A stretch of DNA of 22,153 nt from a virus, in IMG/VR virus record IMGVR_UViG_3300028176_000109, positions 1-22,153 of that record. One strand, given 5' to 3'. Under the pieces are notes generated by a model. It ran no database searches and was not told the DNA's origin. It saw only the letters and a program-made list of their open reading frames with translations. The position numbers and the translations under genes were made by a program. Of the stretch, positions 3,634-22,153 are shown piece by piece. How positions within the stretch are numbered: position 1 is the first letter of the stretch; every line of letters begins with the position of its first letter.

Positions 3634-4143
3634 ATGGCCAAGTATAAGTTCAGAGTTTGGAATAAAGAGTTTAAATGCTGGGATAATACCGCGTGGTTGG
3701 AAGCCGATGACGATGGTGAACTTATCCATATAGGAGACCGAGAAGGTGTCAATACAGTTATCCAGCAATGGACCGGAATATTAGATATCAACGGTAAAGA
3801 GATTTACGAGGGGGATATTTTAAAGGAAACTCATTACGCCTGTGATTACAGTAAGATGATCCCGGTTAGAACGTCGGAGACGTACGAATATATAGGAGTA
3901 GTATATCTCCCAAAAGTATACCCGTACGCATCTATTATGAGTTCCCACGCTGAAGCGTACCCCGTCACGTATAGAACGCACCCCTTAAACACCACTCTAG
4001 GACAGATTATAGGCAACCATATTACCAAAGACCCGGAAGTAATTGGTAATATTTTTGACAATCCCGAATTGTATGTATACGGTCCCTACGGACCCAAAAC
4101 AGTAGACGAGAAGCCAGTTTCTACACGTTTAATACCTGTGTGA
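3634..4143 (+). CDS. YopX family protein
   Basis: 169 residues matching the YopX family (PF09643) found in phages and prophages, function unknown. Signature parts are KFRVWN at 5-10, the core QQWTGILDINGKEIYEGDIL at 44-63, and EVIGNIFDNPEL at 135-146. The region between (about 65-130) is longer than in typical members and includes a second GxIIGNH segment. It follows the 3394 gene by three bases. Its 3' end overlaps the convergent PhoH gene by 23 bases, with no terminator between. Confidence 0.85.
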   Translation: MAKYKFRVWNKEFKCWDNTAWLEADDDGELIHIGDREGVNTVIQQWTGILDINGKEIYEGDILKETHYACDYSKMIPVRTSETYEYIGVVYLPKVYPYASIMSSHAEAYPVTYRTHPLNTTLGQIIGNHITKDPEVIGNIFDNPELYVYGPYGPKTVDEKPVSTRLIPV

Positions 4144-4864
4144 TGTGCTTCAGTATATGTGACCGATTGATGTCGGAGTTATCAAAGCGCATACAATGGA
4201 TATGATTTTTACGGGAAAACTCGGTGTCGAACAACTCGTATATATTATTAAATCCGGAGTTGCTGATGTCGGATTGCTTCATATCACCACAAACGATATA
4301 CTTGGAGTTTCTACCAAACCTTGTTAAAATGGTGGTCAGTTCCGATCTGGTTGCGTTCTGAGCTTCGTCAACAATGACTATGGAGTTGTTGAAAGTGAGA
4401 CCCCTGACAAAGTTGACTGGTATCGCTTTGACATACTCTTGTTCAACCAGAGAGTGAACCGTAAAGGTATCCGTGGACTCTTTAAGCTTGTCTATTAGAA
4501 CTACCGCATAGGCGGCGAACTTATCTGTGATTTCACCGGGAATAGCTCCCATGGAGCGGGACGCACTCTCAATGACGGTCCTGATATAAATTATATGGTC
4601 AACTTTTCGGTTTTTTAAAAGTTCCAGCGCGGAATAAACCGATATATAGGACTTGCTGCTTCCTGCGGGACCATCTAGAAATATCATGTTGGTCTTGTCG
4701 TTCTGTGTCAAATAGTAAAAGGTGGTTTGGTTATCCGTAATCGGAAACATCCTCTTTATTTGTATACTGGAACAATCAAAGTTCTTTTGATACGATTCGC
4801 TAAACTCTTTTGTAATATCCTTACCCGACTCCTGCCTCTTCCGAGGTGCGCGTTTTGTGGCCAT
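4121..4864 (-). CDS. phoH: PhoH-like P-loop ATPase
   Basis: 247 residues. Walker A is GPAGSSKS at 65-72 and Walker B IVIVDEAQNA at 162-171; GAIPGEITDKF at 106-116 and IYIRTVIESA at 92-101 are also typical of phage PhoH, and VCGDMKQSD near the end is the sensor-like motif. The N-terminus is basic (MATKRAPRKRQ). PhoH is a phosphate-starvation ATPase related to RNA helicase and nuclease systems, and very common in marine phages; its phage role is unsettled. It is transcribed opposite to its neighbours, from a promoter at 4872-4899. Its ATG is the only start here with a weak purine tract before it (AAGGA). Confidence 0.93.
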   Translation of the reverse strand: MATKRAPRKRQESGKDITKEFSESYQKNFDCSSIQIKRMFPITDNQTTFYYLTQNDKTNMIFLDGPAGSSKSYISVYSALELLKNRKVDHIIYIRTVIESASRSMGAIPGEITDKFAAYAVVLIDKLKESTDTFTVHSLVEQEYVKAIPVNFVRGLTFNNSIVIVDEAQNATRSELTTILTRFGRNSKYIVCGDMKQSDISNSGFNNIYELFDTEFSRKNHIHCMRFDNSDINRSHILKHITQVLNV

Positions 4865-6333: not shown

Positions 6334-6519
6334 ATGACCTTTTATACTCCTCCAAAACCAAAGTTCCCCCACTCTAGGCTTATAGCAGAGGGAGACTTTT
6401 ATAAAAAATGTGAGATATGTGGTAGTAGCTGCCAACGAAAGTGGTGGTTATTTCCTACCAAAAAATGCGTTCATCCTGAATATAAGAATTATTATAAGAA
6501 TCAAGACGATGATAAATGA
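6334..6519 (+). CDS. small Cys-rich protein, possible zinc ribbon
   Basis: 61 residues. Cysteines at CEICGSSC (26-33) and CVHPEY further on could bind zinc. Function unknown. The ATG is one base past the preceding stop (TGACATG) and the 3' end overlaps the first glycosyltransferase by 11 bases, so it sits within a coupled chain. It could be a short regulatory protein; nothing proves that. Confidence 0.55.
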   Translation: MTFYTPPKPKFPHSRLIAEGDFYKKCEICGSSCQRKWWLFPTKKCVHPEYKNYYKNQDDDK

Positions 6520-7987
6520 CGAGAAAATAGGAGTTGGGATTATAACTTGTAACAGACCCGACTTTTATAAAAAGTGTTACGATAGTATAGCGGATAACCC
6601 TGATGTGGATGTCTTAGTCGTGGTCAATGATGGTGAATATCTTCCCCTCAACGACACCAAACCTTGTGTGTATATCCACAACGACGAGAACTTAGGGGTT
6701 GCTAAATCTAAAAACGAAGCTTTAAAGACTTTGATGGAATATGAGTGCGACCACATCTTTTTGGTGGAGGATGACATGTATATTAAAAATCCAATGATAT
6801 TCCAAAAATACATTGAAGCGTCTAAGATATCTGGAATCCAGCATTTGATGTTTGGATATCATGGCCCTGCCAATAAGAACGGAATTTCAGGCGGTACGCC
6901 AGATCCTAAGCTAGTAGTCAAATATACAGACGATATATCCTTGGCCTTTAATAAGCATTGTGTAGGCGCGTTTTGCTACTATTCGAAAGAATCAATCAGT
7001 AATTGTGGATATATAGATGAGGATTTTAAAAACGCCTTTGATCATGTGTCTCATAGCTACACTTTAGCATTGAAGGGATACTCCACCCCGTATTGGTGGT
7101 GGGCGGATTTGTCAGACTCGCTTGATTATATCGAAGAACAAGAGTGTTCTACTAAGTCGTCTTCCATTGTAACTCCTGAGAATCTAGACAACCATGCTAG
7201 AAATATAGCAACCTCTTACAATTTATTTAAAACCAAGTTTGGGTATTACCCATGGGGTGATTTTGGAGTAATTGAAGCCCCTCTAGACGAAGTTTGTTCT
7301 TTCTTAAGAAGGAAACAATCTTGTTGGACTTCAAAAGTTCTAGTCAAATTCCCTACTAGAAGTAGACCCGATAAGTTTTTCTATGCGCTGGACAAATATT
7401 ATGAGTTGGCCGAAAATTTAGACGATATGGTATTTATTATAACGTGTGATATAGATGATGTGTCTATGAACAATATAGACGTTATAAATAGACTGAAAAA
7501 GTATAAAAACCTGAAAGTGTATTTCGGAACCAGCACTAATAAGATAGAAGCGGTCAACGCAAACATAGAAGAAGGATTTGATGTTCTAATTTTAGCGTCC
7601 GATGATATGGTTCCTGTACACAAAGGATATGATGTGGTCATACGTCAACAAATGTTTAAATATTTCCCAGACGGGGATGGGGCGTTATGGTTCAATGATG
7701 GACACCAAGGAACCAATATAAACACTCTTCCTATCATGGGTAAGGCTTATTACGACAGGTTTGGGTATATATATCACCCGTCATACAAGTCTGTTTATTG
7801 TGATAACGAGTATACTGAAGTAGGAGTTTCCTTGAAAAAGCTTATCTACTTTAGTAATTGTATTATTGAGCATGTGCATCCTGCATTCAAGCCTAATTTA
7901 TGGGACAACCTATACCATACGAATGAACAATACGTGAAGAGTGATGAGTTTAATTATAAGCTTAGAAAGGCGAACAATTACCAATGA
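6509..7987 (+). CDS. two-domain GT-A glycosyltransferase
   Basis: 492 residues from ATG 6509; the frame is open further upstream, but the GT2 start strand KIGVGIITCNRPDFY begins right after this Met. Domain 1 (about 6-260) is a GT2-like GT-A fold: GIITCNRP at 10-17, VVVNDGE at 37-43, NLGVAKSKNEA at 61-71 and the metal site VEDDM at 86-90. Domain 2 (about 277-455) starts VLVKFPTRSRPDKFF and has a second acidic site LASDDMVP at 362-369, resembling another nucleotide-sugar transferase fold. Two catalytic sites in one chain suggest addition of two sugars. It overlaps the preceding small gene and the following one (ATGA), so it is part of a tight operon. Confidence 0.87.
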   Translation: MINDEKIGVGIITCNRPDFYKKCYDSIADNPDVDVLVVVNDGEYLPLNDTKPCVYIHNDENLGVAKSKNEALKTLMEYECDHIFLVEDDMYIKNPMIFQKYIEASKISGIQHLMFGYHGPANKNGISGGTPDPKLVVKYTDDISLAFNKHCVGAFCYYSKESISNCGYIDEDFKNAFDHVSHSYTLALKGYSTPYWWWADLSDSLDYIEEQECSTKSSSIVTPENLDNHARNIATSYNLFKTKFGYYPWGDFGVIEAPLDEVCSFLRRKQSCWTSKVLVKFPTRSRPDKFFYALDKYYELAENLDDMVFIITCDIDDVSMNNIDVINRLKKYKNLKVYFGTSTNKIEAVNANIEEGFDVLILASDDMVPVHKGYDVVIRQQMFKYFPDGDGALWFNDGHQGTNINTLPIMGKAYYDRFGYIYHPSYKSVYCDNEYTEVGVSLKKLIYFSNCIIEHVHPAFKPNLWDNLYHTNEQYVKSDEFNYKLRKANNYQ

Positions 7988-8871
7988 AGCACTTATGCAC
8001 TGTCTCGGATAAAAACTTTCTGTTACAAGGGTTGGCTTTATATGATTCATTATGTGAGACCTCCGAAGATTTTTTATTACACTTCTTCTTTTTCGACGAA
8101 GAACCTATTGAAAGTATAATAACCCTCCCATCTAACAGTAACATAGTGTTCTATAACGTGTCTGACATCGCAACAGATACCGATGAGTTTAAACAGTCGC
8201 AACTGCTGCGTAGCTCGGAGTATAGATACTACTGCTGGTCGTTGGCGTCATACTTCACAAAGTATATAATGGACAAGATCGATAAACCAGTCACTTATAT
8301 AGACAGTGACATCTACTTTCACAAACCCATCGATCTACTATACGAAAAGTTCAACAACAACGACGTAGGGATATTCAGACATAGACAGTTCAACTTGTCG
8401 ATCAATTACATAGAAGGTCACTATAATGTTGGAGTAGTGTATTTTAATAATAGCCGTGCGGGTAAGATTTTACTAAATTGGTGGGCAGACTCCGTGTTGT
8501 ATAAAAAACACCCCGAATACGCAACATGCGGCGACCAAAAGTATTTGGAGGTTTTCACACAACAGAAAAACGTTAGTGTTTACGCTGATCATGGAATAGG
8601 TCATGGCGCTCCATGGCAATGGCAGTTATACGATTATTCCAAGTATAACGACGGGAAGATTATTTGGAACGGAGAAGCCCAAGATCTGGTGTTCTCCCAT
8701 TTTTCACAATTCAAATACAGTTTACCAGACAACCAATATATCGCTTCTACGAGTCACCACTGCTACACCCCCATGCATTACTATAATACATGGCCCTTGA
8801 CGGACATATACAACAGGTATTTCGACAGACTAAAAAAATCACATGAAACATATATACGAGAACATAAATAA
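7984..8871 (+). CDS. GT8-like glycosyltransferase
   Basis: 295 residues. The N-terminus MKHLCTVSDKNFLLQGLALY is like that of GT8/putative nucleotide-sugar transferases, which start by opening a Rossmann-like fold. The metal site is TYIDSDIYF at 104-112 (Asp107, Asp109). HYNVGVVYFNNS at 146-157 and CGDQKYLEVF at 182-191 are typical conserved blocks in this clan. It likely transfers a sugar from a nucleotide donor to a growing glycan. It overlaps the preceding gene by four bases (ATGA), and its end overlaps the FkbM gene by 29 bases. The donor and acceptor are unknown. Confidence 0.8.
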   Translation: MKHLCTVSDKNFLLQGLALYDSLCETSEDFLLHFFFFDEEPIESIITLPSNSNIVFYNVSDIATDTDEFKQSQLLRSSEYRYYCWSLASYFTKYIMDKIDKPVTYIDSDIYFHKPIDLLYEKFNNNDVGIFRHRQFNLSINYIEGHYNVGVVYFNNSRAGKILLNWWADSVLYKKHPEYATCGDQKYLEVFTQQKNVSVYADHGIGHGAPWQWQLYDYSKYNDGKIIWNGEAQDLVFSHFSQFKYSLPDNQYIASTSHHCYTPMHYYNTWPLTDIYNRYFDRLKKSHETYIREHK

Positions 8872-9523
8872 CCATACTGTATGCAGTACGTTATTGACCC
8901 TTAATAATTGGGTGTTGGATTTGGGTTGTAATGGGTTTGATTTCTCATACTTGTTGCTCCAGAGAGGAATGAAGGTAATAGGGGTTGATCCGATGCAGAA
9001 TATTTCTATTCCCGACGTAGTGGGGGAAAACCCCAATTTTCATTTTATAAATAGTGCTTGCACAGGAATCAAACGAGAAAAACAAGTATATTACGAGTAC
9101 ATGGGATGGGGTGCTAACTCCATATACAACACTCCAGAAAATCTCCGTCGTCCCGAGCATCTTGGACACGCTGAGAACGCGTTCAAGTCGTCTTATCTGG
9201 TTGACATTACTACCATACAGGAGTTGATGGACCAGTTTAAAATATCTCAGTTTGATTGTATAAAAATGGACGTAGAGGGGGCCGAATACGAAATATTGGA
9301 CAACCTGCCACCCAAATGTACCAAGCAAATATCAATTGAGTTTCATGACTTTTTAAGTTTGAACCCCATGGGTGAAAACATAGAAGAGTATCATCGGCAA
9401 TTGGAAGATGTGGTTTTAAAAGATTACTGTATGGTGGTACAAGACACCAGTCCATACAAGGGCATCAATGACGGGCGGTTACAGCGCGACGATGTATTAT
9501 ATGTATTGAAAGATTTATTATGA
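8843..9523 (+). CDS. FkbM-family SAM-dependent methyltransferase
   Basis: 226 residues. SAM motif I is VLDLGCNGFDFS at 24-35, followed by VIGVDPMQN at 45-53. The family signature FDCIKMDVEGAEYEIL is at 137-152 (Asp143, Glu145, Glu148). FkbM enzymes O-methylate sugars and polyketides, and are common in cyanophage and polysaccharide gene clusters. No later in-frame ATG would leave motif I intact, so the start inside the previous gene (29-base overlap) is accepted. Probably O-methylates a sugar added by a neighbouring transferase (inference). Confidence 0.88.
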   Translation: MKHIYENINNHTVCSTLLTLNNWVLDLGCNGFDFSYLLLQRGMKVIGVDPMQNISIPDVVGENPNFHFINSACTGIKREKQVYYEYMGWGANSIYNTPENLRRPEHLGHAENAFKSSYLVDITTIQELMDQFKISQFDCIKMDVEGAEYEILDNLPPKCTKQISIEFHDFLSLNPMGENIEEYHRQLEDVVLKDYCMVVQDTSPYKGINDGRLQRDDVLYVLKDLL

Positions 9524-10398
9524 AAATAGCATTTGGAATGATAGTGTTCGAAGGGGATTATGTGTTAAAGCAGTGCTTGGAACAAGTGTATCCATTTGCT
9601 ACTCAAATTTTGATCTCGGAAGGGCCAGTTAGTTACTGGCAGCGTATGGGTAGGTCTACCTCACTAGACTCTACTAACAAGATATTAGAGACTTTTCCCG
9701 ACCCGGAGAACAAGATTATCATAACCCATGGACAGTTTAGGGAGAAAGACGACCAATGTCGCGCATATATGGCGCATATAAGACCAGATATTGACTACGT
9801 GTGGAACTTGGATTCGGATGAGATTTTTTCAACCGAAGATTTAACGAACATTGTTCAATACCTAGAACAAAAATCTCCGACCAGCGTAGGTATACAAAGC
9901 TGTTCTTTCTATGGAGGGTTTGATAGATTTTTAACTGGTTTTGAGTTAAACTGTGATAACTTTTTACGCATATTCAAATATGTTGAGGGTTCAACATGGG
10001 AAACCCATAGACCTCCGACGATACAGTACCCATACCACATCGACAGAAAGCATATTACTAGTGATATATTGTATCAAGAATTGGGAATGCAAATGTACCA
10101 CTACTCGTATGTGTTTCCTAAACAGGTGTATAATAAAGTCAGCTATTATAAAAGTGATGTCAGTAGACAAAACTGTATAGATAATTATTTTCAAAGTATA
10201 TACTTACCGTGGGTTTTGGGCGACGATAAACAGAAAAACGACATAGAAAAACAGTTTTGTGGAGTCCATGAGTTCAAGCCACATGTCAGAGGAGACTGCT
10301 ACACATGCAAGTTTAGAGGAAACCATCCAACTTCAATTTTAAATGATATGGCAGAGCTGAAAGCAAGCTTCGAAACCCAATTAAAAACATTCATATGA
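9520..10398 (+). CDS. GT2-like glycosyltransferase
   Basis: 292 residues. MKIAFGMIVFEGDYVLKQCL is the family-2-like opening and YVWNLDSDEIF carries the DSDE metal site at 98-101. ILISEGP at 30-36 is the second strand. The C-terminus has a CxxC-like stretch (GDCYTCKF). Starts with ATGA overlap on the preceding FkbM gene and ends with the same overlap on the next methyltransferase. Likely adds a sugar in the same pathway; donor unknown. Confidence 0.8.
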   Translation: MKIAFGMIVFEGDYVLKQCLEQVYPFATQILISEGPVSYWQRMGRSTSLDSTNKILETFPDPENKIIITHGQFREKDDQCRAYMAHIRPDIDYVWNLDSDEIFSTEDLTNIVQYLEQKSPTSVGIQSCSFYGGFDRFLTGFELNCDNFLRIFKYVEGSTWETHRPPTIQYPYHIDRKHITSDILYQELGMQMYHYSYVFPKQVYNKVSYYKSDVSRQNCIDNYFQSIYLPWVLGDDKQKNDIEKQFCGVHEFKPHVRGDCYTCKFRGNHPTSILNDMAELKASFETQLKTFI

Positions 10399-10976
10399 AC
10401 ACTGATATAGTTGATAATATCAAGAACTACTGGCATCCTGACGGACATACAAGTGAAACTCAACGAGACTTTCTAATAGAGTTTATCGTGCTGCATCAAC
10501 CTAAACAATGTATAGAGATTGGATTTGCGGGAGGTAGACACGCCTCAACCCTGATACATTCGACCAACATAGACAAGCTAATAAGCATAGACATAGATTT
10601 TGATTATTATAATGGTAGATCATACTGTGCTGAATTATGCAAACTGTGTAACAACCTATCCTTTATTGAAGGAAACTCGACGAATATATTGTCTGAGGAG
10701 TTTTTTGCCAAAGAGTTCCCGATAGATTTAGACTATATCTTTATTGACGGTGGTCATGATTACGACACAGTTATGACAGATATGAAAAATTGTATATCCC
10801 ATTTAAAAACCAACGGAGTGATGATCATTGATGATTACCGAAGTTCTGGTCCTGTGGGGTGTAATATACCAGACGTGGACCGAGCAGTGGAAACGTTTTT
10901 CAGTGAGAGAAACCTTAAGTATGAGTCTATCCATCTTTCAGATGGAAAGGGAATGGCTATCTTTAAAAACCCTTAA
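10395..10976 (+). CDS. class I SAM methyltransferase, Methyltransf_24/CmcI-like
   Basis: 193 residues. Motif I is CIEIGFAGGRHASTLI at 39-54. Later blocks are ISIDIDFDYY at 63-72, DYIFIDGGHDYDTV at 113-126 and GVMIIDDY at 141-148; the IDGGHxY and IIDDY pair is typical of Methyltransf_24 enzymes such as CmcI- and rhamnosyl O-methyltransferase-like proteins. Likely an O-methyltransferase for a sugar. It overlaps the preceding gene by four bases. The following gene starts eleven bases after its stop, the longest gap in this part of the island. Confidence 0.8.
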   Translation: MNTDIVDNIKNYWHPDGHTSETQRDFLIEFIVLHQPKQCIEIGFAGGRHASTLIHSTNIDKLISIDIDFDYYNGRSYCAELCKLCNNLSFIEGNSTNILSEEFFAKEFPIDLDYIFIDGGHDYDTVMTDMKNCISHLKTNGVMIIDDYRSSGPVGCNIPDVDRAVETFFSERNLKYESIHLSDGKGMAIFKNP

Positions 10977-10987
10977 TAAATTACAGA

Positions 10988-11482
10988 ATGAGCGAATTAA
11001 AAAAACCTTGGTTGGTGAACGAAGCGGTAGATTTTTTAGAGACATACCTAACTGACCAAATGACCATGTTGGAGTTTGGGTCTGGATATTCTACCTTATG
11101 GTTTCAAACCAAGGTCAAACAGATATTCTCCATAGAGTATAATAAGCAGTGGTACGACGACATTAGTAAGCAAGCCAGCTCAAACTGTAATTTGATATTT
11201 GTAGACGCGGTTGAAACCGTTCCAAATGATGAAACCGTTCCTAGTTACTCCTATATAGTTGACCAGTATGAAGACGAGTTCTTTGATTTTATCCTAGTGG
11301 ATGGAAGAAATAGGGTTGACTGCTTCCTAAAGTGTGATAGAGTGTTAAAAGCTGGTGGGGTCATAATGCTAGATAATTCGGAGAGACCGGAGTATTCCGA
11401 GGTTTTCAAGTTTTATGAGAACAAAAAACTCTTTGAAGTGTTCGGAGATTATGGGTGGAAAACAAGCTGGTGGATAAAATAA
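10988..11482 (+). CDS. class I SAM methyltransferase-like protein
   Basis: 164 residues. MLEFGSGYSTLWFQ at 27-40 is SAM motif I, IFSIEYNKQWY is motif II (acidic Glu), FDFILVDGRNRVDCFL the central strand, and GGVIMLDNSERPEY the following strand and loop. These are typical of small class I methyltransferases in polysaccharide loci. Target unknown. TAAATT lies exactly five bases before the ATG, a one-mismatch version of the phage promoter element, so an internal promoter is possible. Confidence 0.75.
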   Translation: MSELKKPWLVNEAVDFLETYLTDQMTMLEFGSGYSTLWFQTKVKQIFSIEYNKQWYDDISKQASSNCNLIFVDAVETVPNDETVPSYSYIVDQYEDEFFDFILVDGRNRVDCFLKCDRVLKAGGVIMLDNSERPEYSEVFKFYENKKLFEVFGDYGWKTSWWIK

Positions 11483-11483
11483 C

Positions 11484-12092
11484 ATGAGTGACAATCATTT
11501 GGATAGTTGGAAAAACGATGCAGTAGCTAGCAAGCAACTGGATTTAAATAAAACAGAACTTATATCTCACAATTACCCGCCTCATTGGGAGTTTATTTTA
11601 CAACACATAGCCCCTATCGTAACTATAGATACCAAGGTTTTGGATATTGGATGTGGAACTGGTAGCATGTGTAAATTATTAGTAGACAACGTAGGCGTAT
11701 GTCCTAAAAATTACACTGGAGTTGATTATTCGGAGCAAGCTATAAACCTAGCCAAACAAAACTATGAAGGAGATTTTCTGGTTATGAACTATAAAGATTT
11801 ATCGCCTTGTTATGTAAGTGGGTTTGATATAGTCATATCAAGCGCGTTGACTAATGTTCTGCCGAACGGAGACGAATGTCTAGAATTCATACTCTCGTTA
11901 CAATCAAAGGCGCTATTCCTATTAAAGATACTAACCACTTCAGGCGTATCTCATTATACAGAATACATGGCGTATGATATTATACCCACGTATAGATACG
12001 AGCATAATATAAACAATTTGGCGGATTTGATAAACCGTTACCACTATAACATCTTGGGCAGCACAGACACCAACTTTTACTTAAAACTATGA
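11484..12092 (+). CDS. class I SAM methyltransferase, Methyltransf_25-like
   Basis: 202 residues. KVLDIGCGTGSMCKLL at 51-66 is a textbook motif I; YTGVDYSEQAINLAKQN is motif II; FDIVISSALTNVL is the post-II strand. The N-terminal SWKNDAVASKQLDLN resembles the entry helix of small-molecule and sugar methyltransferases. It starts one base after the preceding stop and ends with ATGA overlap on the next. The specific substrate is unknown. Confidence 0.83.
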   Translation: MSDNHLDSWKNDAVASKQLDLNKTELISHNYPPHWEFILQHIAPIVTIDTKVLDIGCGTGSMCKLLVDNVGVCPKNYTGVDYSEQAINLAKQNYEGDFLVMNYKDLSPCYVSGFDIVISSALTNVLPNGDECLEFILSLQSKALFLLKILTTSGVSHYTEYMAYDIIPTYRYEHNINNLADLINRYHYNILGSTDTNFYLKL

Positions 12093-12805
12093 ACACGCGA
12101 GAAGACCTGAAAAATTATGTAGATGAGTTTTTATCCATCTACCCGAACAGACCAATACGAGACAACCATGGCGGATGCTTATCCGTCAACCTGTTTCATA
12201 TTTTCTATGTCCTTAAAAAGTATAAACCGAAGGTGATCATAGAAAGCGGGGTATTCAAAGGACAAACCACATGGTTGATAAACCAAGTATTGCCAGAGTC
12301 TCTAATAGTATGCATAGACCCCAACTTACAACAAATAGTGTATAGGAGCAAAAACGCCCAATACATGACAAACGACTTCTTATCAATAACAAAAAAAAGC
12401 ATAGCCGATGATGTGGTTGAAAACTCTTTGATAATTTTCGATGACCATCAAGACGCGCCCGCTAGATTGTTACACGCCCATGCGTTAGGGTTTAAGCTAC
12501 TATATTTCGATGACAATTACCCGGAGTACAGAGGACACCGACACCTGTCCATACAGGCAGTAATGGACGGGAAACATGACCCGGGATTCGTTATACCGGA
12601 GGGTGTGAAAGCTACGCTGGAAGCGGCTATGAAAGAATATTCGATTCTTCCGCCTGTTCTTCCATATGATAAGCCTATTACTATGGAAAGTTCTTACATA
12701 AATATACCACCAGTTTTCAATGATGTCACTGAACACGCTGGCATTGAGTTGTTTGAAAACGATTTACATAATTATAGGTGGCATACTTTAATAACCTTAA
12801 ACTAA
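12089..12805 (+). CDS. class I methyltransferase-like (CmcI/rhamnosyl O-methyltransferase-like)
   Basis: 238 residues. VIIESGVFKGQTTWLIN at 49-65 takes the place of SAM motif I (ESGVFKGQT), IVCIDPN at 73-79 is motif II, and LIIFDDHQDAPARLLHA at 114-130 matches the acidic metal or base site of CmcI-type enzymes. FDDNYPEYRGHRHLS at 140-154 is a conserved histidine-rich loop in related polysaccharide-cluster proteins. Likely O-methyltransferase, with less certainty than its neighbours because motif I is divergent. ATGA overlap with the preceding gene; nine bases before the next. Confidence 0.7.
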   Translation: MNTREDLKNYVDEFLSIYPNRPIRDNHGGCLSVNLFHIFYVLKKYKPKVIIESGVFKGQTTWLINQVLPESLIVCIDPNLQQIVYRSKNAQYMTNDFLSITKKSIADDVVENSLIIFDDHQDAPARLLHAHALGFKLLYFDDNYPEYRGHRHLSIQAVMDGKHDPGFVIPEGVKATLEAAMKEYSILPPVLPYDKPITMESSYINIPPVFNDVTEHAGIELFENDLHNYRWHTLITLN

Positions 12806-12814
12806 CTCGATAAC

Positions 12815-13618
12815 ATGAGTGAAAAGATTCCAGTATTACTAATACATAGAGGACACGATGAGTATGTCCAACACGCAATAAATCAAGCAGTGTATTGTGG
12901 AAACGAAGTTACTATCATAACTGATAGGGAGTATAGTAATTGTAAGGTGGTCAACATCGGTGATTTCCTAACAATGGCAAACCAGTTTAGAGACATATAT
13001 GTACCTTTGTCTACCCTCGGAGATTATGAGTTATTCTGTTTCCAAAGATGGTTTGTGTTGTATGAGTATATGACACTCAACAATCTGTTACAGGTTTTTT
13101 ATATAGATTCTGATGTTTTATTATATGATGATGTAACTAGCGATAAAGCCTACTTCGATAACTTCATATTCACCCTGATACTAAAATCCGTGGGGTGTTG
13201 CTCTTATTTTTCCTACATAGGGCTATCAAGCTTTTGTAAATTTCTATTCGACATCTACCAGAATAAAACGTCCTATGAGTTTGCCAAGATCGCGTCTCAC
13301 TTTTCAGTTAGACAGCAACATGGTCTAGCTGGGGGAGTTTGTGATATGACCCTGTTTGAATACTTTGGAAGATACAAGTGCGCGAATGGCGTGGGAGAAC
13401 TAACATTTGTTAGAGACAACTCTACATACGACCACAATATAAACGACAAAGATACGTTTTACGAGTTTGACGGTACTAAGAAAATCAATTTTTATGGGAA
13501 TCATCCTTACTGCTTCAACAAGTTTTTAAACACTAACGTTCGATTCAAGTCGATACACTTCCAAGGTGGGAGCAAATCCTTAATACCCGACTACTGCACA
13601 TACAACAAGCAACACTAA
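12815..13618 (+). CDS. DSD-type glycosyltransferase
   Basis: 267 residues. It begins IPVLLIHRGHDEYVQHAINQ, the opening of a nucleotide-sugar transferase family seen near FkbM genes. LFCFQRWFVLYEYM at 73-86 and VFYIDSDVLLYDDV at 94-107 (DSD metal site 98-100) are its strongest blocks. The GVCDMTLFEYF segment and the late NHPYCFN fit the same family. It likely adds a sugar to the island's glycan. No ribosome binding site; the start lies nine bases after the preceding stop. Confidence 0.8.
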   Translation: MSEKIPVLLIHRGHDEYVQHAINQAVYCGNEVTIITDREYSNCKVVNIGDFLTMANQFRDIYVPLSTLGDYELFCFQRWFVLYEYMTLNNLLQVFYIDSDVLLYDDVTSDKAYFDNFIFTLILKSVGCCSYFSYIGLSSFCKFLFDIYQNKTSYEFAKIASHFSVRQQHGLAGGVCDMTLFEYFGRYKCANGVGELTFVRDNSTYDHNINDKDTFYEFDGTKKINFYGNHPYCFNKFLNTNVRFKSIHFQGGSKSLIPDYCTYNKQH

Positions 13619-13619
13619 C

Positions 13620-14459
13620 ATGAATAAGCTCTCACAAACAGAAGGAAACGACTGGATCTCCAATAGAATTAAAAACGCCGTCCCTTCGGCTATTGGTAAA
13701 ATTGGTAACGTCGAAGGGGAATGCTTGCTAATCTATGATCGATATTCCCCCGTGCCGTGGGGGAACGTTGGACAGGCGGCGATGTTATATATAAACGCAG
13801 GAGTGTACCCGTTTGACGGTGATGTTTTCGACTCATACTGTAACCAGACTTTGAAACTGTTGCCCAACTTCGACATGCTGGTTTCGTGGAACGGGTTTGA
13901 CGGCGAACTAATCTCAAAGTATGGGAGTGTGGGCATAACTACTACGGAGCTAAGAGCGTTGGAACCATTCTACCATGAATGTCCATGGAGTTTGGAACTC
14001 AAAGATAAAAACGTGTTACTGATAAGCCCTTTCACCGAAACCGCCAAACTGCAATATGTGAATCGAAAGGCGGTATGGTCTAAAAAAGAAGTGTTACCAG
14101 ATTTTAACCTGTTGACTATAAAATCCCCGTATAGCTCTGGAGTAGACCCCAACACACCTTTTGGATCTTGGTTCGAAGCGTATGACCATATGCAGAATTT
14201 GATGTCTAATATGTCTTTCGATGTGGCTATTGTCGGAGCAGGAGCCTATTCATTATGGTTGGTAAACCATGCTAAAAGCTTAGGAAAAATCGGAATACAT
14301 ATAGGAGGAGGCACACAAATCCTGTTTGGAATTAAAGGAAGACGCTGGGACGCCCACGACGATATATCCAAGTTTTTCAATGATTCGTGGTGTAGACCTT
14401 CGGTGGAAGAAACCCCAATCAACCCAAACCTTATAGGAGACGGAGCTACTTACTGGTAA
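13620..14459 (+). CDS. GT-D-like protein of polysaccharide clusters, putative glycosyltransferase
   Basis: 279 residues. The N-terminus SAIGKIGNVEGECLLIY (23-39) has the glycine and Glu pattern of GT-D fold proteins (DUF1792-like, in which an acidic residue binds metal). The C-terminal third is typical of a family I know from capsule and O-antigen loci: FDVAIVGAGAYSLWLVNHAK, GIHIGGGTQILFGIKGRRWD, WCRPSVEETP and a terminal YW. The biochemical role of that family is poorly known; glycosyl transfer is an inference. It starts one base after the previous stop and the DegT gene follows four bases later. Confidence 0.65.
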   Translation: MNKLSQTEGNDWISNRIKNAVPSAIGKIGNVEGECLLIYDRYSPVPWGNVGQAAMLYINAGVYPFDGDVFDSYCNQTLKLLPNFDMLVSWNGFDGELISKYGSVGITTTELRALEPFYHECPWSLELKDKNVLLISPFTETAKLQYVNRKAVWSKKEVLPDFNLLTIKSPYSSGVDPNTPFGSWFEAYDHMQNLMSNMSFDVAIVGAGAYSLWLVNHAKSLGKIGIHIGGGTQILFGIKGRRWDAHDDISKFFNDSWCRPSVEETPINPNLIGDGATYW

Positions 14460-14463
14460 AAAC

Positions 14464-15390
14464 ATGATACAATTATTCAACATACCCAATCACGTAATAG
14501 ACACCTCGAAGTTTTCAAACATGCTCCACGATAAGGTGGTTGAAGAGTTTGAGCATAAGTTTTCGGAATACGTTGGAGCAAAGTATGCATGTTCCGTAAA
14601 TAGCGCCACAAACGCTATTTTTATAGCTCTCCTCGATAAGAAAGAAGTCATAAACGTACCTAGCATAATCCCGCCTGTTGTATTGAACGCGATAGTCACG
14701 TCGAACAACTTTATAAACTTTGTTGATAACGTTGATTGGGTGGGTGGTTCTTACACTCTGTATGAGTCCGACGAGTATAAAATAATAGACTCCGCTCAAA
14801 GGGTTGTAAAAGACCAGTTCAAAAACGAGGCCAATGATAATGATTTGATGATTTTCAGCTTTTACCCGACTAAACCGATAGGAAGTTGTGACGGTGGTAT
14901 TATAGTGTCTAATGACAAACAGAAAATCAACCACTTTAGAACATTGGTTATGAACGGCATGAGTTTTTCTGAACATAATTGGGAAAGAAAGCTGAAGTTT
15001 CCGGGTTATAAGATGTATATGAACTCGATACAAGCCCATATAGCGTACGCAAACTTTAATACGTATGCCGATAAACTAGACAAGCTAAACGAGATACGAG
15101 AAACTTACAACCGTCTGTTGGGTCTAAGTAATAAAAGCGATCACCTTTATAGGATAAAGGTTAAAAACAACAAACAGTTCTTGTCTAGAATGAGGGAAAA
15201 ACAAATTGTTTGTGGTATCCATTACGAGTGTCAGCACAATAATCCGATATACTTATACCATACACCTGTTGATAACTGCCCGCTGTCCCAGCAGGAAGCT
15301 CTAACAACCGCCAGTATTCCCTTTCACGAAGGACTTGACAAACAGGATGTCCAGTGTATAGTAAAGAGCGTATATGAATGTGACGTATGA
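14464..15390 (+). CDS. DegT/DnrJ/EryC1-type sugar aminotransferase
   Basis: 308 residues, shorter than the usual 370-400. PLP-enzyme signatures remain: CSVNSATNAIFIAL at 43-56, IIDSAQRV with the cofactor Asp at 109, SFYPTKPIGSCDGG with the Schiff-base Lys at 137, and YKMYMNSIQAHIAYANF as the subunit helix. The family transfers an amino group from glutamate to a nucleotide-linked keto sugar. The next gene is an FdtA/QdtA ketoisomerase overlapping it by 17 bases, so an FdtB/QdtB-like role (3-amino-3,6-dideoxyhexose) is likely. Shortening is mainly between motifs, not loss of the active site. A mRNA-level fault is not seen. Confidence 0.87.
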   Translation: MIQLFNIPNHVIDTSKFSNMLHDKVVEEFEHKFSEYVGAKYACSVNSATNAIFIALLDKKEVINVPSIIPPVVLNAIVTSNNFINFVDNVDWVGGSYTLYESDEYKIIDSAQRVVKDQFKNEANDNDLMIFSFYPTKPIGSCDGGIIVSNDKQKINHFRTLVMNGMSFSEHNWERKLKFPGYKMYMNSIQAHIAYANFNTYADKLDKLNEIRETYNRLLGLSNKSDHLYRIKVKNNKQFLSRMREKQIVCGIHYECQHNNPIYLYHTPVDNCPLSQQEALTTASIPFHEGLDKQDVQCIVKSVYECDV

Positions 15391-15760
15391 AGCCTTGAAA
15401 GATTGTCGGGGAGACTTAACTCCAATAGAGTTTAGAGATGTCCCGTTTATTCCGAAGCGAGTTTTTGTAGTAAAAAACGTACCGAAAAACGTAACGAGAG
15501 GAGGACATGCCCACTTTGAAACCATGCAGGTAGTAATCTGTATTCAAGGTGAAATAGAGGTTGTGTTAGACGACGGAACGTCTAAAAGACGGGAGGTCTT
15601 AACCGAGGGACAGTCATGTTTTATTGATAGTTTAGTTTGGGACGAACAAGTATTTTTAACCGGAAACGATATTTTACTAGTTCTATGCTCCACTTCTTAC
15701 GATAAGGAAGATTATATTACAGACTATTTAACTTTCCAAACCATATTAAAAAGCCTATGA
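15374..15760 (+). CDS. FdtA/QdtA-like dTDP-4-keto-6-deoxyhexose 3,4-ketoisomerase (cupin)
   Basis: 128 residues, normal for the family. Cupin core: RGGHAHFETMQVVICIQG at 42-59 includes the His pair (45, 47) that in FdtA is essential; VLDDG at 64-68, SLVWDEQVFL and STSYDKEDYITDY follow as in FdtA/QdtA. The enzyme moves the keto group of dTDP-4-keto-6-deoxyglucose from C4 to C3 so that the aminotransferase can add N at C3. Its substrate is made by RmlA and RmlB, which are not in the window, so the host probably supplies it. Overlaps DegT at 15374-15390 and the next gene by ATGA. Confidence 0.9.
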   Translation: MNVTYEALKDCRGDLTPIEFRDVPFIPKRVFVVKNVPKNVTRGGHAHFETMQVVICIQGEIEVVLDDGTSKRREVLTEGQSCFIDSLVWDEQVFLTGNDILLVLCSTSYDKEDYITDYLTFQTILKSL

Positions 15761-16524
15761 CCGCTCTTGTTATTTGCCCGACGTATGGTAGACTTCCTTA
15801 TCTGGGGAGGGTTCTGGCTGGATTTCTTCGTCAAACCTACCAGAACAAGCATCTGGTTTTTATAAACGATGACCAGTATGTTACTTTGAAGTGTTCCTAC
15901 GATGATGTTACATGTATAAACATGCGGGACCGGATGCTGCTACCCCATAAACGAAATTTGGGGATAGCATACAAGGAGTTTGACGTGATATTCTCTCATG
16001 ATGATGATGATATATTTTTGCCTAACCGAATAGCCAACCATATTAGAAAGTATATTGAGAACCCTGGAATCAACCTATACCGGAACGGCGCTTCATATGT
16101 GACATACGATGAACAGTTTTACGACATCGCTTATAAAACTCCCAATGACGTGTCGTTCCTAAAAAAAGCATGGTATGAAGTAGGGGGATACAGTCTACAA
16201 TCTTCCCGAGGAGACGACGACGATTTATATAGTAGAATCGATAAGAAATTGGTGGAGTTTGACCGAACCAACATGGACTTCGTGTACAACATCAGCGGGA
16301 TAAACTACCATCTATCATCAGGAGACTCGGATGCGTTGATAGAACGGGTGGCATATGAACAGCGGATCGAGATGAACATTCACAACAAACCATTTAACAT
16401 CGAACCGGACATTGAAGAGTATAACAAGTTTATACGAATGACGGTAGAATACCAAGTAACAGGATATCCGGTCTGCTTTAAACACTACGATACACATAGG
16501 ATTGAAATATGTTCAACACCGTAA
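15757..16524 (+). CDS. GT2-family glycosyltransferase
   Basis: 255 residues. ALVICPTYGRLPYLGRVLAG at 3-22, HLVFINDDQ at 32-40 and VIFSHDDDDIFLPNRI near 78-92 are classic GT2/GT-A parts, with the acidic metal site in HDDDD. A second acidic patch, RGDDDDLYSRI, lies near 147-157. ATGA overlap with FdtA, and its 3' end overlaps the gp62-like gene by 16 bases. It is the last clear sugar-transfer gene of the island. Confidence 0.87.
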   Translation: MTALVICPTYGRLPYLGRVLAGFLRQTYQNKHLVFINDDQYVTLKCSYDDVTCINMRDRMLLPHKRNLGIAYKEFDVIFSHDDDDIFLPNRIANHIRKYIENPGINLYRNGASYVTYDEQFYDIAYKTPNDVSFLKKAWYEVGGYSLQSSRGDDDDLYSRIDKKLVEFDRTNMDFVYNISGINYHLSSGDSDALIERVAYEQRIEMNIHNKPFNIEPDIEEYNKFIRMTVEYQVTGYPVCFKHYDTHRIEICSTP

Positions 16525-18472: not shown

Positions 18473-20089
18473 ATGACCAACCTGATACTCAATTTTCCCG
18501 AAGGCTTCAGTCCCAACCCTACTCAGGTAGAGATTCTCAAAGAGATGGAACGGGCGTTAGCAGATGGGCATAAGTTTATAATCTGCAACGCCGCAACAGG
18601 AGCGGGAAAGAGTTTTATACCGAAAACCTTGGCCAATGCTGTCAATGGGCCGTCTGATCTTTTCAAGAGCAGAGTAGATGATTATTCCATATTCGGAGAC
18701 GATGGACCCGCGTATATGGACGAGGAGGAATCTTTCGGTTGTTACGCGCTTACCATAACAAAAGCTCTTCAAGACCAGTATTACAACACTTTCGAGAATA
18801 CCGGGATTTTAAAAGGGCAATCAAACCATGCTTGCGATATAGACACTTCTTTAAGTGTGGACATAGCTCCCTGTACATATATCCCGAAATTAAAAAGAGA
18901 GTGCTGGAGATCTAATAGATGTCCGTATTATAACCAGCGCAACAACATGTTGAAAAGTGATTTCGCGGCCTTGAATTACAGCATGTTCTTCTCACTGCCT
19001 GCACACTTAAAACGCCGTAAGATCATAGTTTGTGATGAGGGATCGGAACTAGAAGAACAACTAGTGAGCCAGTTTACATGTGAAGTGGACATCCCCTTCC
19101 TAGTTAAAACGAACACTACTCTGACGTCTTTCCCGGTGGAAGAAACCCCGACAAAGGTTCTGAACTGGTTGTCCGTACTTTTGCGGAACGTAATAAACAA
19201 CATTGACGATTACGCGGATTTCTTCAAAAACACTTCCAGAGACCATACTGAGCTGTCGAAAAAGAAAACCGAGTATACCCGTCTAATGTCTCTTCAAAGT
19301 AGTCTGGAAGTCTTAATCGGAACGTATTACGATAGTCAGTATATAATAATTAAAGATAATAGAATCATTAAGTTTGTTCCCCTGAAGGTCGATAAGCTAG
19401 CAAGATTTATCTTCGATTACGCGGATCATGTGGTTATAATGTCCGCTACAATCATCGACCCTCCCAACTTCTGTAAGAACTTGGGTATTGTAAAATATAA
19501 GTACATTGAAGTAGCTTCGACGTTCGACCATGAAAAGGCTCCCATATATATTCTCGCCAAACAGAAACTAAACTTCAAAAACATGACAGAAATGCTTCCT
19601 AAACTGGCCCATCAGGTGGAAGGACTTCTGGAAGAACACGCGAGCGATAAAGGACTTATACATACCCATACTCAGTTTATCACAGACTATATTAGAACCA
19701 ATGTACCTAGCTCCCGGTTACTCTGTAGGGAAGCGGGGGTGCGTAACGAGGAGCTTTTGGATATGCATGAACGAAGCAGTTCTCCCACCGTTCTGGTAAG
19801 CCCTAGCATGACCTACGGGGTGGATTTGAAGGGGGATTTGGCCAAGTTCCAAATCATAATGAAAGCGCCTTGGCTACCCACCAAAGATCCTAGAATTGAG
19901 AAAATGATGAAGCTTGACAAGGCGTGGTATACAAACAAAATGCTTTGTTCGGTTGTCCAAGCGTCCGGTAGGGGTATAAGATCGGAAGAGGATGAGTGTG
20001 TGACTTATATTCTGGATGGTTGTATATTCGATGCGATTGATAAAAACAGGAATAAGCTGCCAAAGTTCTTCTTAGATCGATTCCAGTGA
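18473..20089 (+). CDS. XPD/DinG-type Fe-S superfamily 2 DNA helicase
   Basis: 538 residues from ATG 18473 (an upstream in-frame GTG lies inside the promoter). Walker A is NAATGAGKS at 39-47. Four Cys at 121, 134, 144 and 150 fit the XPD/DinG iron-sulfur site. Motif II reads VCDEGSELE at 186-194 (DEGS in place of DEAH). MSATIID is motif III, IHTHTQF motif IV, PSMTYGVDLKG motif V, and QASGRGIRSEED motif VI. A segment at about 55-88 between motifs I and Ia is an acidic insertion. These helicases unwind 5'-3', probably in phage recombination or repair. The last codons overlap the reverse homing endonuclease gene by 18 bases. Confidence 0.92.
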   Translation: MTNLILNFPEGFSPNPTQVEILKEMERALADGHKFIICNAATGAGKSFIPKTLANAVNGPSDLFKSRVDDYSIFGDDGPAYMDEEESFGCYALTITKALQDQYYNTFENTGILKGQSNHACDIDTSLSVDIAPCTYIPKLKRECWRSNRCPYYNQRNNMLKSDFAALNYSMFFSLPAHLKRRKIIVCDEGSELEEQLVSQFTCEVDIPFLVKTNTTLTSFPVEETPTKVLNWLSVLLRNVINNIDDYADFFKNTSRDHTELSKKKTEYTRLMSLQSSLEVLIGTYYDSQYIIIKDNRIIKFVPLKVDKLARFIFDYADHVVIMSATIIDPPNFCKNLGIVKYKYIEVASTFDHEKAPIYILAKQKLNFKNMTEMLPKLAHQVEGLLEEHASDKGLIHTHTQFITDYIRTNVPSSRLLCREAGVRNEELLDMHERSSSPTVLVSPSMTYGVDLKGDLAKFQIIMKAPWLPTKDPRIEKMMKLDKAWYTNKMLCSVVQASGRGIRSEEDECVTYILDGCIFDAIDKNRNKLPKFFLDRFQ

Positions 20090-20791
20090 TACCTTACATT
20101 CTTTATAGTTATGCTTGGCGAGTAATATTGACTGTCTTCTTTTTTCTATAACCTCTACGGGATCTTTTCTCCCTTTACCAGCTTTTGAAATTTTTTGTTT
20201 ATGCTCCTCTGTCAACGAGCGTCCTTTTAAAGGACTAGGCTTGCCGATATGAGATAACGATTGCTTATCTCTCCATTCTTTTGAACGAGGAGGACGCGTC
20301 TTACCCATGTGACTTTTGGATATTTTTGCCTTGGTTTCTTCTGAGACGGGGTGGCCCGGTTTACCCTTTTTAAGAATAGACATTTTATTTTTAGTTTCCA
20401 ATGAGTGCTTTCTTTTCGGGTTATCAATACAAGAATTTTTTATCTTCGCTATTGCTTCTTTGGTGTGTTTGTATCCGTTACTATCATTTCCTCTAGGGGA
20501 AACGTTATATCCGTTTGGAATCAATGACCCAAATCTAATTATCAATTGCTCTTCTAAATCAAGAAGATCTTTCTTTTTAAACCCAGATAAGTACTCCACA
20601 TACACTTCAAAATTTTCGATACCGTGTTTAGATATAGACTTATGAATTATTTGACAGTCTCTCCTATTTCTATGAAAAGACATTCTTTCTCTTATGTTTA
20701 AAGATTCGCCAATATAATATTTTTTTGTTATATTGTTTCTTATAATATAAACTCCTCCACATTTTTTAAACGAGTTATCTACGATTTTCAT
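20072..20791 (-). CDS. GIY-YIG homing endonuclease with NUMOD3 repeats
   Basis: 239 residues. GVYIIRN at 13-19, YYIGES at 25-30, Arg34 (NIRER), Glu80/81 in LDLEEQLIIRFG and NGYNVSPRG at 93-101 define the GIY-YIG domain; SxETKxKMSxxxKG-type NUMOD3 motifs follow from about 130. The start is taken at 20791 because its ATG overlaps the RHH stop (ATGA); an in-frame ATG at 20809 would lie inside that gene. It lies between the helicase and the gp15-like structural gene, on the opposite strand, and its 3' end overlaps the helicase end. More AT-rich than its neighbours. Confidence 0.9.
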   Translation of the reverse strand: MKIVDNSFKKCGGVYIIRNNITKKYYIGESLNIRERMSFHRNRRDCQIIHKSISKHGIENFEVYVEYLSGFKKKDLLDLEEQLIIRFGSLIPNGYNVSPRGNDSNGYKHTKEAIAKIKNSCIDNPKRKHSLETKNKMSILKKGKPGHPVSEETKAKISKSHMGKTRPPRSKEWRDKQSLSHIGKPSPLKGRSLTEEHKQKISKAGKGRKDPVEVIEKRRQSILLAKHNYKECKVSLESI

Positions 20792-20937
20792 AATGTTGTA
20801 TCTACCCAAGACTCTAACGCCCTCCGGACTATTTCGCTTATAGTAACTCCTTTTTTATTTGCCTGCGCTCTCACCTTTCGTTTTAACTCTTCCGTTACAA
20901 ACACTTCTATTTTCACCTTTGCTGATTTTTCCATCAT
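20788..20937 (-). CDS. ribbon-helix-helix (CopG/Arc-type) repressor, 49 residues
   Basis: A short gene read on the minus strand: MMEKSAKVKIEVFVTEELKR then a KVRAQANKKGVTISEIVRR-type helix and ALESWV. The pattern strand (KVKIEVFVTEEL), helix, turn with G, then SEIVRRALESW is the standard RHH fold; RHH dimers insert the N-terminal strand into the DNA major groove. The stop overlaps the ATG of the endonuclease (ATGA), so both form one operon. The start at 20937 lies exactly five bases after TATAAATA. A 27-bp palindrome next to that promoter is the likely binding site. A second ATG at 20934 would also work. Confidence 0.85.
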   Translation of the reverse strand: MMEKSAKVKIEVFVTEELKRKVRAQANKKGVTISEIVRRALESWVDTTL

Positions 20938-20942
20938 ACTAT

Positions 20943-20950
20943 TATTTATA
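20943..20950 (-). promoter_or_regulatory. consensus TATAAATA promoter of the RHH-endonuclease cassette
   Basis: Read on the minus strand, this is the exact T4 late consensus TATAAATA, followed by exactly five bases and the ATG at 20937. It is the best match among the TAAATA elements here. The palindrome at 20951-20977 ends directly at it, so a repressor there would block it. Confidence 0.7.
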
Positions 20951-20977
20951 CGTTTTCATGAAATTTTCATGAAAACG
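20951..20977. promoter_or_regulatory. 27-bp perfect palindrome, likely RHH operator
   Basis: Arms CGTTTTCATGAAA and TTTCATGAAAACG around one central T. Inside it are two copies of TTTTCATGAAA 11 bases apart, each with its own palindromic core TTTCATGAAA, so two RHH dimers could bind on one face of the helix. It lies directly upstream of the RHH promoter and about 30 bases from the opposite-facing promoter of the structural gene. Confidence 0.75.
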
Positions 20978-21006
20978 ACCAACTAGGTCTTTATGATAAG
21001 AAACGA

Positions 21007-21014
21007 GCTAAATA
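21007..21014 (+). promoter_or_regulatory. late-type TAAATA promoter for the gp15-like gene
   Basis: GCTAAATA, six bases before a GTG at 21021. Same octamer as at 1949. An ATG overlapping its end (21014) is followed by a stop four codons later, so the GTG is the likely start. Faces away from the RHH cassette. Confidence 0.55.
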
Positions 21015-21020
21015 TGGGTA

Positions 21021-22153
21021 GTGGATAAGTATAGCTATTTTAGAGAAAACTATAATGTATTGGCCCAATTCATGGCAGCCTTCGACGGAGCTTTCGTTTA
21101 TAGATATACGAAAGATCGTGTAGCTAAAGAGAAAATCAACGTTCGATACGTCATGGGTCCGAAGCATCGGGTGATGTACGATATCGTAAATCAGGCGAAA
21201 AACATCACATTGCCAGTTGTGGCGATGGAACAGAAGAACATACGCCGAGACTCTTCCAGAATCCAGAACAAGGATTTTCGGATGTATCGCCACCATCTAA
21301 ACAGCAAAGACATCTCAAAAATCCCCCAACCTGTCCCGGTTTTGATCGACGTGGATGTAGCCATTGTCGCGAATTATAAGGAGGATATCGATCAGATCAT
21401 ATCAAACTTCATTCCATGGTGCAACCCGTACTTCATAATCTCATGGAAGATCCCCGAAGGGTTTGATCTTGATTTCGACGATGAAATAAGAACAGAGGTA
21501 TCATGGTCTGGGGATGTCAGCTTTGAAAGCCCTATAGACATATCCGCCCAAGACAAGTATAAGATTGTAGGGAACACCTCGTTTACCATAAAAGGATGGA
21601 TATTCCCTCCATTGGAAAACATATCCGCTCCCATTTATGTGGTTCGTAATAATTTCCACCCTGTAGCGACTGGTGATGACTTATACACGTATAGCGCATA
21701 CTCCACTCTTTCCAGCGTCGATTACACCGGAACTGACGTGGTTCTGATTTCCGCCTACCCGGAATTCACCAACTTCTTCTATGGTTCGTATCCGTTGTTT
21801 GAAACCACAAGGATACCTGACTATATAGATGCCACGGTCACTCTTTTTGGGAAGAGATTTAGCTATAACAACACATGGTACTTAAGTTCTAATGAGAATA
21901 TTCCAGCTTTGGCATACGAAGAAATCGACACCGCTAAGTTCCCAACCATCTCCGCTTATAGAATCCCAGACGACAGTGTAACCATTGTATCTGATAACGT
22001 GGCGACTATCTCACTTTCATCGGTATGGTTGTCAGGGTTTAACGAGTTTACATTCGTAACTGCTAACAGCGCGGGCTGGACAAACCTAAACTTCAGTTTT
22101 TTTTTAGATAATTCCGCCACAAATATATACGTTCAGCCTAATTTTATGTATAC
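21021..22153 (+). CDS. gp15-like tail sheath stabiliser/structural protein, 3' end outside window
   Basis: The frame is open from GTG 21021 to the window end (at least 377 residues). The first 145 residues resemble T4 gp15 and its phage relatives: AQFMAAFDGAFVYRYT, then INVRYVMGPKHRVMYDIVNQ at 39-58, ITLPVVAMEQKNIRRDSSR at 62-80, and ANYKEDIDQIISNFIPWCNP at 117-136 followed by FIISW. gp15 caps the tail tube and sheath and joins it to the head. The part beyond about 200 has beta-rich, low-charge sequence and is longer than T4 gp15 (272 residues), so extra domains are present. The late-type promoter fits a structural gene. The name is based on pattern memory. Confidence 0.6.
   Translation, partial: MDKYSYFRENYNVLAQFMAAFDGAFVYRYTKDRVAKEKINVRYVMGPKHRVMYDIVNQAKNITLPVVAMEQKNIRRDSSRIQNKDFRMYRHHLNSKDISKIPQPVPVLIDVDVAIVANYKEDIDQIISNFIPWCNPYFIISWKIPEGFDLDFDDEIRTEVSWSGDVSFESPIDISAQDKYKIVGNTSFTIKGWIFPPLENISAPIYVVRNNFHPVATGDDLYTYSAYSTLSSVDYTGTDVVLISAYPEFTNFFYGSYPLFETTRIPDYIDATVTLFGKRFSYNNTWYLSSNENIPALAYEEIDTAKFPTISAYRIPDDSVTIVSDNVATISLSSVWLSGFNEFTFVTANSAGWTNLNFSFFLDNSATNIYVQPNFMY

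Follow-up and report, generated by a model that had tools for sequence, protein, structure and literature searches.

The window analysed here, a 22,153-base IMG/VR virus fragment from a T4-like phage, carries an inserted cassette in which a GIY-YIG endonuclease gene is preceded by a short RHH gene, a late promoter box and a repeated operator. We consider it probable that this cassette is a mobile element whose free-standing homing endonuclease is made late in infection and kept in check by an autorepressor of the element's own, a CopG/Arc-like protein. It extends approximately from 20090 to 20980, as judged by comparison with the related locus L032, the right border being good to a few bases. 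On the minus strand, the palindrome CGTTTTCATGAAAATTTCATGAAAACG (20977-20951) is followed by the box TATAAATA (20950-20943) and, after a five-base gap, by the RHH gene (20937-20788, 49 aa, first of the operon) and the endonuclease gene (20791-20072, 239 aa). The endonuclease start ATG (20791-20789) and the RHH stop TGA (20790-20788) overlap as ATGA. A 49-codon RHH gene with this overlap, and a promoter octamer that abuts a perfect 27-bp palindrome, had been noticed in a preliminary description; both were confirmed, the former from the sequence and the Pfam RHH_1 match, the latter at 20943-20950 (minus strand) and 20951-20977. A longer endonuclease open reading frame starting at TTG (20072-20809) is unlikely because the homologues begin at the ATG. 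The gene to the right of the cassette matches T4 gp15, the tail sheath stabiliser; it starts at a GTG (21021) and has its own TAAATA box (21009-21014, plus strand) outside the cassette, an arrangement repeated in L032, L034 and L045. Elsewhere in the window (6410-16524), the open reading frame list includes a run of about 12 genes that resemble glycosyltransferases, methyltransferases, a DegT-like aminotransferase and a cupin, which would fit a phage that modifies sugars on its own surface.

The RHH protein matched Pfam RHH_1 with 25.9 bits, against a gathering score of 20.5 (E 9e-6), and a PHROG Arc-like repressor (E 7e-5). Its AlphaFold2 model (pLDDT 87) has the strand-helix-helix fold, with helices at residues 16-29 and 33-48, and its top PDB matches were CopG, ORF56, PutA and Arc. 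Foldseek gave a probability of 0.99 to ORF56 and 0.98 to CopG, with no E-value below 0.001. VIA-align gave Z scores of 6-7 across 43-49 residues, a Z below 8 being by itself no proof of fold; all the listed VIA-align matches that we recognised are RHH proteins. Among relatives dN/dS was 0.03-0.12, and zero in a pair without amino-acid change; these values indicate that the short gene is under real constraint, and by this measure it is subject to strong purifying selection. Searches of deposited phages with the RHH protein returned weak matches to Sulfolobus rod-shaped virus (E 0.2) or none, and the output of a PDB sequence search was dominated by designed helical repeat proteins. The first RHH match (L002) was discarded as an unrelated RHH gene with no adjoining endonuclease.

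The endonuclease carries a GIY-YIG domain (Pfam, E 8e-10) and five NUMOD3 stretches (E 4e-17), and matches a PHROG homing endonuclease (E 6e-29). The motifs of the GIY-YIG catalytic domain are kept in the endonuclease alignment, and KVP40 SegD is a distant relative. The enzyme is predicted to cut cassette-free alleles, and it may be copied into them. The window contains a second GIY-YIG/NUMOD3 gene (1962-2864), which is preceded by TAAATA and 5 nt before its ATG, with neither an RHH gene nor an 11-bp repeat upstream; a relative of this second gene is found at 3787-4599 of L038.

Mobility was assessed with the helicase relatives of the window, from which the cassette-free neighbourhood was taken. 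The comparison with genomes lacking the cassette, proposed in the preliminary description, yielded an empty site in L032: its helicase is 99.8% identical and only 34 nt separate helicase from gp15. The same gap measures 28 nt in L034 and 30 nt in L045, so that close relatives differ in whether an endonuclease gene lies between these conserved genes, in the manner of Seg-like genes. A rise in identity between the window and L032 toward the insertion was considered as a trace of co-conversion and rejected, as L032 has no cassette and conserved gene ends explain the rise equally well. The junction is occupied otherwise in L033 (6632-6988), L035 (3638-4015) and L039 (3456-3830), by an AAA ATPase gene or by small genes that we take to be YopX-like; an open reading frame at 3634-4143 of the window is listed with these. 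The helicase-gp15 junction is empty in some relatives and holds other genes in others, which makes it a general hot spot for insertions.

At the helicase-gp15 junction, and oriented as in the window, L038 carries a tandem of two RHH-endonuclease pairs, with RHH proteins 48% and 44% identical and endonucleases 64% and 34% identical to those of the window. Searching IMG/VR viral contigs with an alignment of these three endonucleases gave 26 loci. The search for RHH-GIY-YIG pairs suggested earlier supported the proposal: an RHH gene of 44-51 aa, directly upstream and overlapping the endonuclease start or at most 5 nt from it, was present in all 24 closer loci (L051-L074). L075 (41% identity, catalytic domain only) and L076 (28%) had no RHH gene at the endonuclease. 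With the addition of L095, L101 and L050, found via the operator or the RHH gene, the set grew to about 28 contigs, representing about 12 distinct cassettes; the latter is the number of independent cassettes, because many contigs are near-identical copies. Two insertion sites were used. In the window, L038 and L052-L072 the cassette neighbours gp15 and points away from it; in L073, L074, L095 and L050 it sits where an RNA ligase gene has its 3' end. In L050 (2998-3200) the RHH gene and operator are intact and the endonuclease is reduced to about 25 codons; a LAGLIDADG-like open reading frame (3681-4547) lies near this remnant. On this distribution, the cassette is a recurring mobile unit of uncultured T4-like phages and not a one-off. 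A nucleotide search of deposited phages with the cassette gave no match, and no member of the family was found in that collection. No such RHH gene was found at the distant GIY-YIG loci L003-L031 or at the bacterial-genome loci L119-L138. Because distant GIY-YIG genes (L075, L003-L031 and the second gene of the window) lack it, the RHH gene is a trait of one clade.

The operator of the window is a perfect inverted repeat (20951-20977) with 13-bp arms and a 1-nt centre, made of two self-complementary TTTTCATGAAA units 11 bp apart, one annotated as distal to the promoter (20953-20963) and a second at 20964-20974. On the minus strand, the ATG cores of these units precede the TAAATA box by 11 and 22 nt. 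In eight distinct cassettes, the DNA upstream of the RHH start matched itself at a shift of 11 bp with a mean of 11.4/14, compared with 7.6 (sd 0.4) in shuffles, and 11 bp was the only shift from 6 to 16 to give a strong self-match. Eight of the nine distinct cassettes tested had this periodicity, the exception being L073, which has an irregular element. Only 2 of 84 late-gene upstream regions reached the level of the cassettes, and both are the cassette operator read from the gp15 side; the 82 other late promoters of these loci had no 11-bp periodicity. The units are CATGA-like except in cassette A of L038, where CTGGAAAAAAT occurs four times in a row; the second cassette of this tandem (L038:7799-9976) has CATGAAAAAAA twice. 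The two different operators of L038 look as if they had been selected against cross-talk. In the window, L038, L074, L095 and L050 the TAAATA box is preceded by two unit cores, at distances of 11-14 and 22-25 nt; the L052-L072 clade has a TAAGTA box instead, with exact cores 23 and 34 nt upstream of it and a CATT variant 12 nt upstream.

The exact 23-bp core of the window operator had no match in IMG/VR, so the letters of this palindrome were not found elsewhere. The perfect palindrome is a by-product, because two self-complementary units sit one helical turn apart. The preliminary description had taken the palindrome as the conserved element; this part did not hold, and the conserved feature is the 11-bp-spaced units. 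We infer that RHH binds these units; their 11-bp spacing is what would be anticipated if two RHH dimers sat next to each other on a single DNA face. Among RHH proteins, RelB has been studied with adjacent dimers bound in this way (PMC2812701).

A pattern combining operator, box and start codon was run against 2.9 million viral contigs and gave 20 matches, of which 19 lay directly before a cassette-type RHH gene and one is a chance match. Since known cassettes had served to build the pattern, their recovery is no news and the result lies in the near-absence of other downstream genes; the scan also revealed L095 and L101, which prior protein searches had missed. A genome has about one copy of the operator core, located at the cassette (two exceptions among 18 records), and RHH therefore looks dedicated to its own promoter. 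Conservation of the palindrome without the RHH gene would have spoken against the original proposal; the operator core was found essentially only at cassettes.

The TATAAATA octamer occurs three times in the window, compared with 2.5 expected, and its presence alone is no evidence; it becomes meaningful because of its position before start codons. Among 164 open reading frames of the helicase-family loci, the spacing from the end of TAAATA to the start codon was exactly 5 nt in 33 cases and 6 nt in 13, compared with 2 and 8 cases at these spacings for the control hexamer ATAAAT. None of the 46 TAAATA-type starts had a Shine-Dalgarno-like motif, and no conserved upstream element of the -35 type was found at the genes with a TAAATA box. 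Starts of this kind, with TAAATA 5-6 nt upstream and no Shine-Dalgarno motif, are found in the window at 21009-21021 and at starts 17526, 1076 and 236, and in the open reading frames of L032-L046. The sequences suggest that late messages of this phage group are leaderless or nearly so. A Kozak-like translation signal was rejected as the main reading of TAAATA, 41 such starts having no enrichment of A at -3. Homologues of T4 gp55, the late sigma factor, were found in all nine large related genomes. In L143 (G021:33973-34335) and L144 (G020:62001-62363) the gp55 match crosses one TAG codon; the alignment may run beyond the true end, or the codon may be read through. Because of the box position, the lack of Shine-Dalgarno motifs and the gp55 homologues, the cassette promoter is of the phage's own late-promoter type. 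T4 late transcription begins about 6 nt after the box; with this geometry, transcription would start at or near the RHH ATG and the operator would lie at about -14 to -40.

In five related cassettes, conserved DNA starts at the operator: identity was 62% from -130 to -61, rose to 86% in the 60 nt of operator and promoter and to 92% in RHH, and was 72% across the first 110 codons of the endonuclease. In L052 and L054 the RHH proteins are identical and the endonuclease N-domains share 62%. It follows that operator, promoter and RHH act as one expression module. Across all cassettes the divergences of RHH and endonuclease correlate (r 0.68, Mantel p 2e-4), and so the two mostly travel together.

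A self-regulated endonuclease cassette made of RHH gene, operator and late promoter, as first proposed, is supported by the 24 of 24 loci and by the near-restriction of the operator core to cassettes. We propose that the phage late promoter would transcribe RHH and endonuclease as a single message. RHH dimers would then occupy the 11-bp-spaced units immediately upstream of the box, adjacent to one another along a single face of the DNA, and bound RHH would shut the promoter, leaving only a late pulse of endonuclease. The likely purpose would be to cap the amount of endonuclease made late in infection. Because the operator is inside the cassette, the regulatory circuit moves with it. In its arrangement, a short RHH gene first in the operon with a conserved operator at the promoter, the cassette has the layout of a classical autorepressor such as CopG.

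Several observations stand against this explanation. The operator is upstream of the box and not over it, a place open to an activator too. L073 has no regular 11-bp repeat, and the independent cassettes are only about 12. L050 has kept RHH and operator despite a truncated endonuclease; RHH may be useful without the nuclease, or the loss of the endonuclease may be recent. Because of the operator position, activation is the main rival: RHH would recruit polymerase from about -20 to -36 and produce a delayed, self-reinforcing burst of endonuclease. The place of the operator is fixed relative to the box, the last unit cores being 11-14 nt upstream. A -35 element is lacking in T4 late promoters, activation by T4 MotA takes place from about -30, and there are activators among the RHH proteins (AmrZ). 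However, an identical box works without operator at dozens of genes, including the other GIY-YIG gene of the window, and therefore an activator is not needed. Where a short RHH protein controls its own operon, it is in most cases a repressor (CopG, Arc, antitoxins). We therefore regard activation as unlikely, and repression as the probable mode of action.

The preliminary description had likened the layout to a plasmid copy-control or toxin-antitoxin circuit. Copy control by CopG proved the better analogy and the toxin-antitoxin likeness is weak. A pair in which RHH neutralised the nuclease, the cassette being kept by addiction, would account for a small RHH gene that overlaps a nuclease gene in an autoregulated operon, and the window RHH has a weak, sub-cut-off similarity to Pfam CopG_antitoxin. 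However, the RHH proteins of the cassettes (44-51 aa) end at helix 2, with no toxin-binding tail past the DNA-binding fold, nearly identical RHH proteins precede widely differing endonucleases, and close relatives have empty sites. Mainly because the RHH protein is too short, this reading fails, and we hold it to be very unlikely. Slightly less credible still is a general phage regulator of many promoters with which the endonuclease is paired by hitch-hiking: L050, where RHH lacks an intact endonuclease, would fit, but the operator core is found about once per genome, cassette-free relatives have no such RHH gene, and the pairing persists at two unrelated insertion sites. That RHH is a targeting partner, helping the endonuclease to find or cut its site, is suggested by the tight operon of DNA-binding protein and nuclease but is extremely improbable, as the endonucleases have their own NUMOD DNA-binding parts, which vary among cassettes while RHH and operator are constant, and the recognisable RHH sites are at the promoter.

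In addition to autorepression, RHH could also act as a cassette immunity factor, resident RHH silencing incoming cassettes with a matching operator and thereby defining incompatibility groups; we consider this additional role rather doubtful. If it were true, two cassettes could share a genome only with diverged operators. The tandem operators of L038 (CTGGAAAAAAT versus CATGAAAAAAA) would fit and L050 would be an immunity remnant, suggestions that are equally tentative.

To persist without damage to the phage, a homing endonuclease probably has to be produced late and in small amounts. A portable brake, consisting of a dedicated repressor and its operator, would achieve this in a new way, as it moves with the endonuclease into different sites and is retained as the endonuclease diverges. 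How a free-standing endonuclease limits its own cost can here be put to a direct test, with a protein of 45 residues and a DNA element of 60 bp. The RHH gene also illustrates that a gene too small for the usual annotation cut-offs can be a conserved component of a mobile element. No example of this arrangement had been known to the preliminary description, and no described pair of RHH protein and homing endonuclease was found among the open-access papers searched.

The nearest parallel in function is I-TevI of T4, which autorepresses at a late promoter via its own DNA-binding domain (Edgell et al., 2004, reviewed in PMC2988022). Both are GIY-YIG homing endonucleases of T4-type phages with an operator at the endonuclease's late promoter that limits expression (or, in the cassette, would do so), the late-type box being here directly downstream of the operator. 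I-TevI is its own repressor and is intron-encoded, whereas the cassette has a separate RHH gene, a free-standing endonuclease and an operator of 11-bp repeats. The cassette also resembles T4 SegA-SegG, free-standing GIY-YIG genes between conserved phage genes. The T4 seg genes are served by neighbouring promoters, by middle or late promoters or by RNA hairpins, and several T4 endonucleases are limited by such hairpins (PMC2988022); in contrast with the cassette, the annotation of KVP40 shows no RHH gene beside its SegD-like gene. Mobile elements with their own small regulator are also found among CRISPR-associated transposons, which carry Arc_1 and Arc_2 (RHH proteins of 53-72 aa) and the MerR-type CvkR, the mRNAs of CvkR and cas12k being leaderless (PMC9938897). 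These differ from the cassette in the kind of element, in a regulator reversed upstream of cas12k and in their location on a bacterial chromosome. The protein itself is, from its predicted structure, most like CopG and ORF56, RHH proteins of about 45 residues that consist of the DNA-binding fold alone. These are encoded first in their operons, whose promoters they repress, and serve plasmid copy control. CopG limits a plasmid replication protein, whereas the gene downstream in the cassette encodes a homing endonuclease of a lytic phage.
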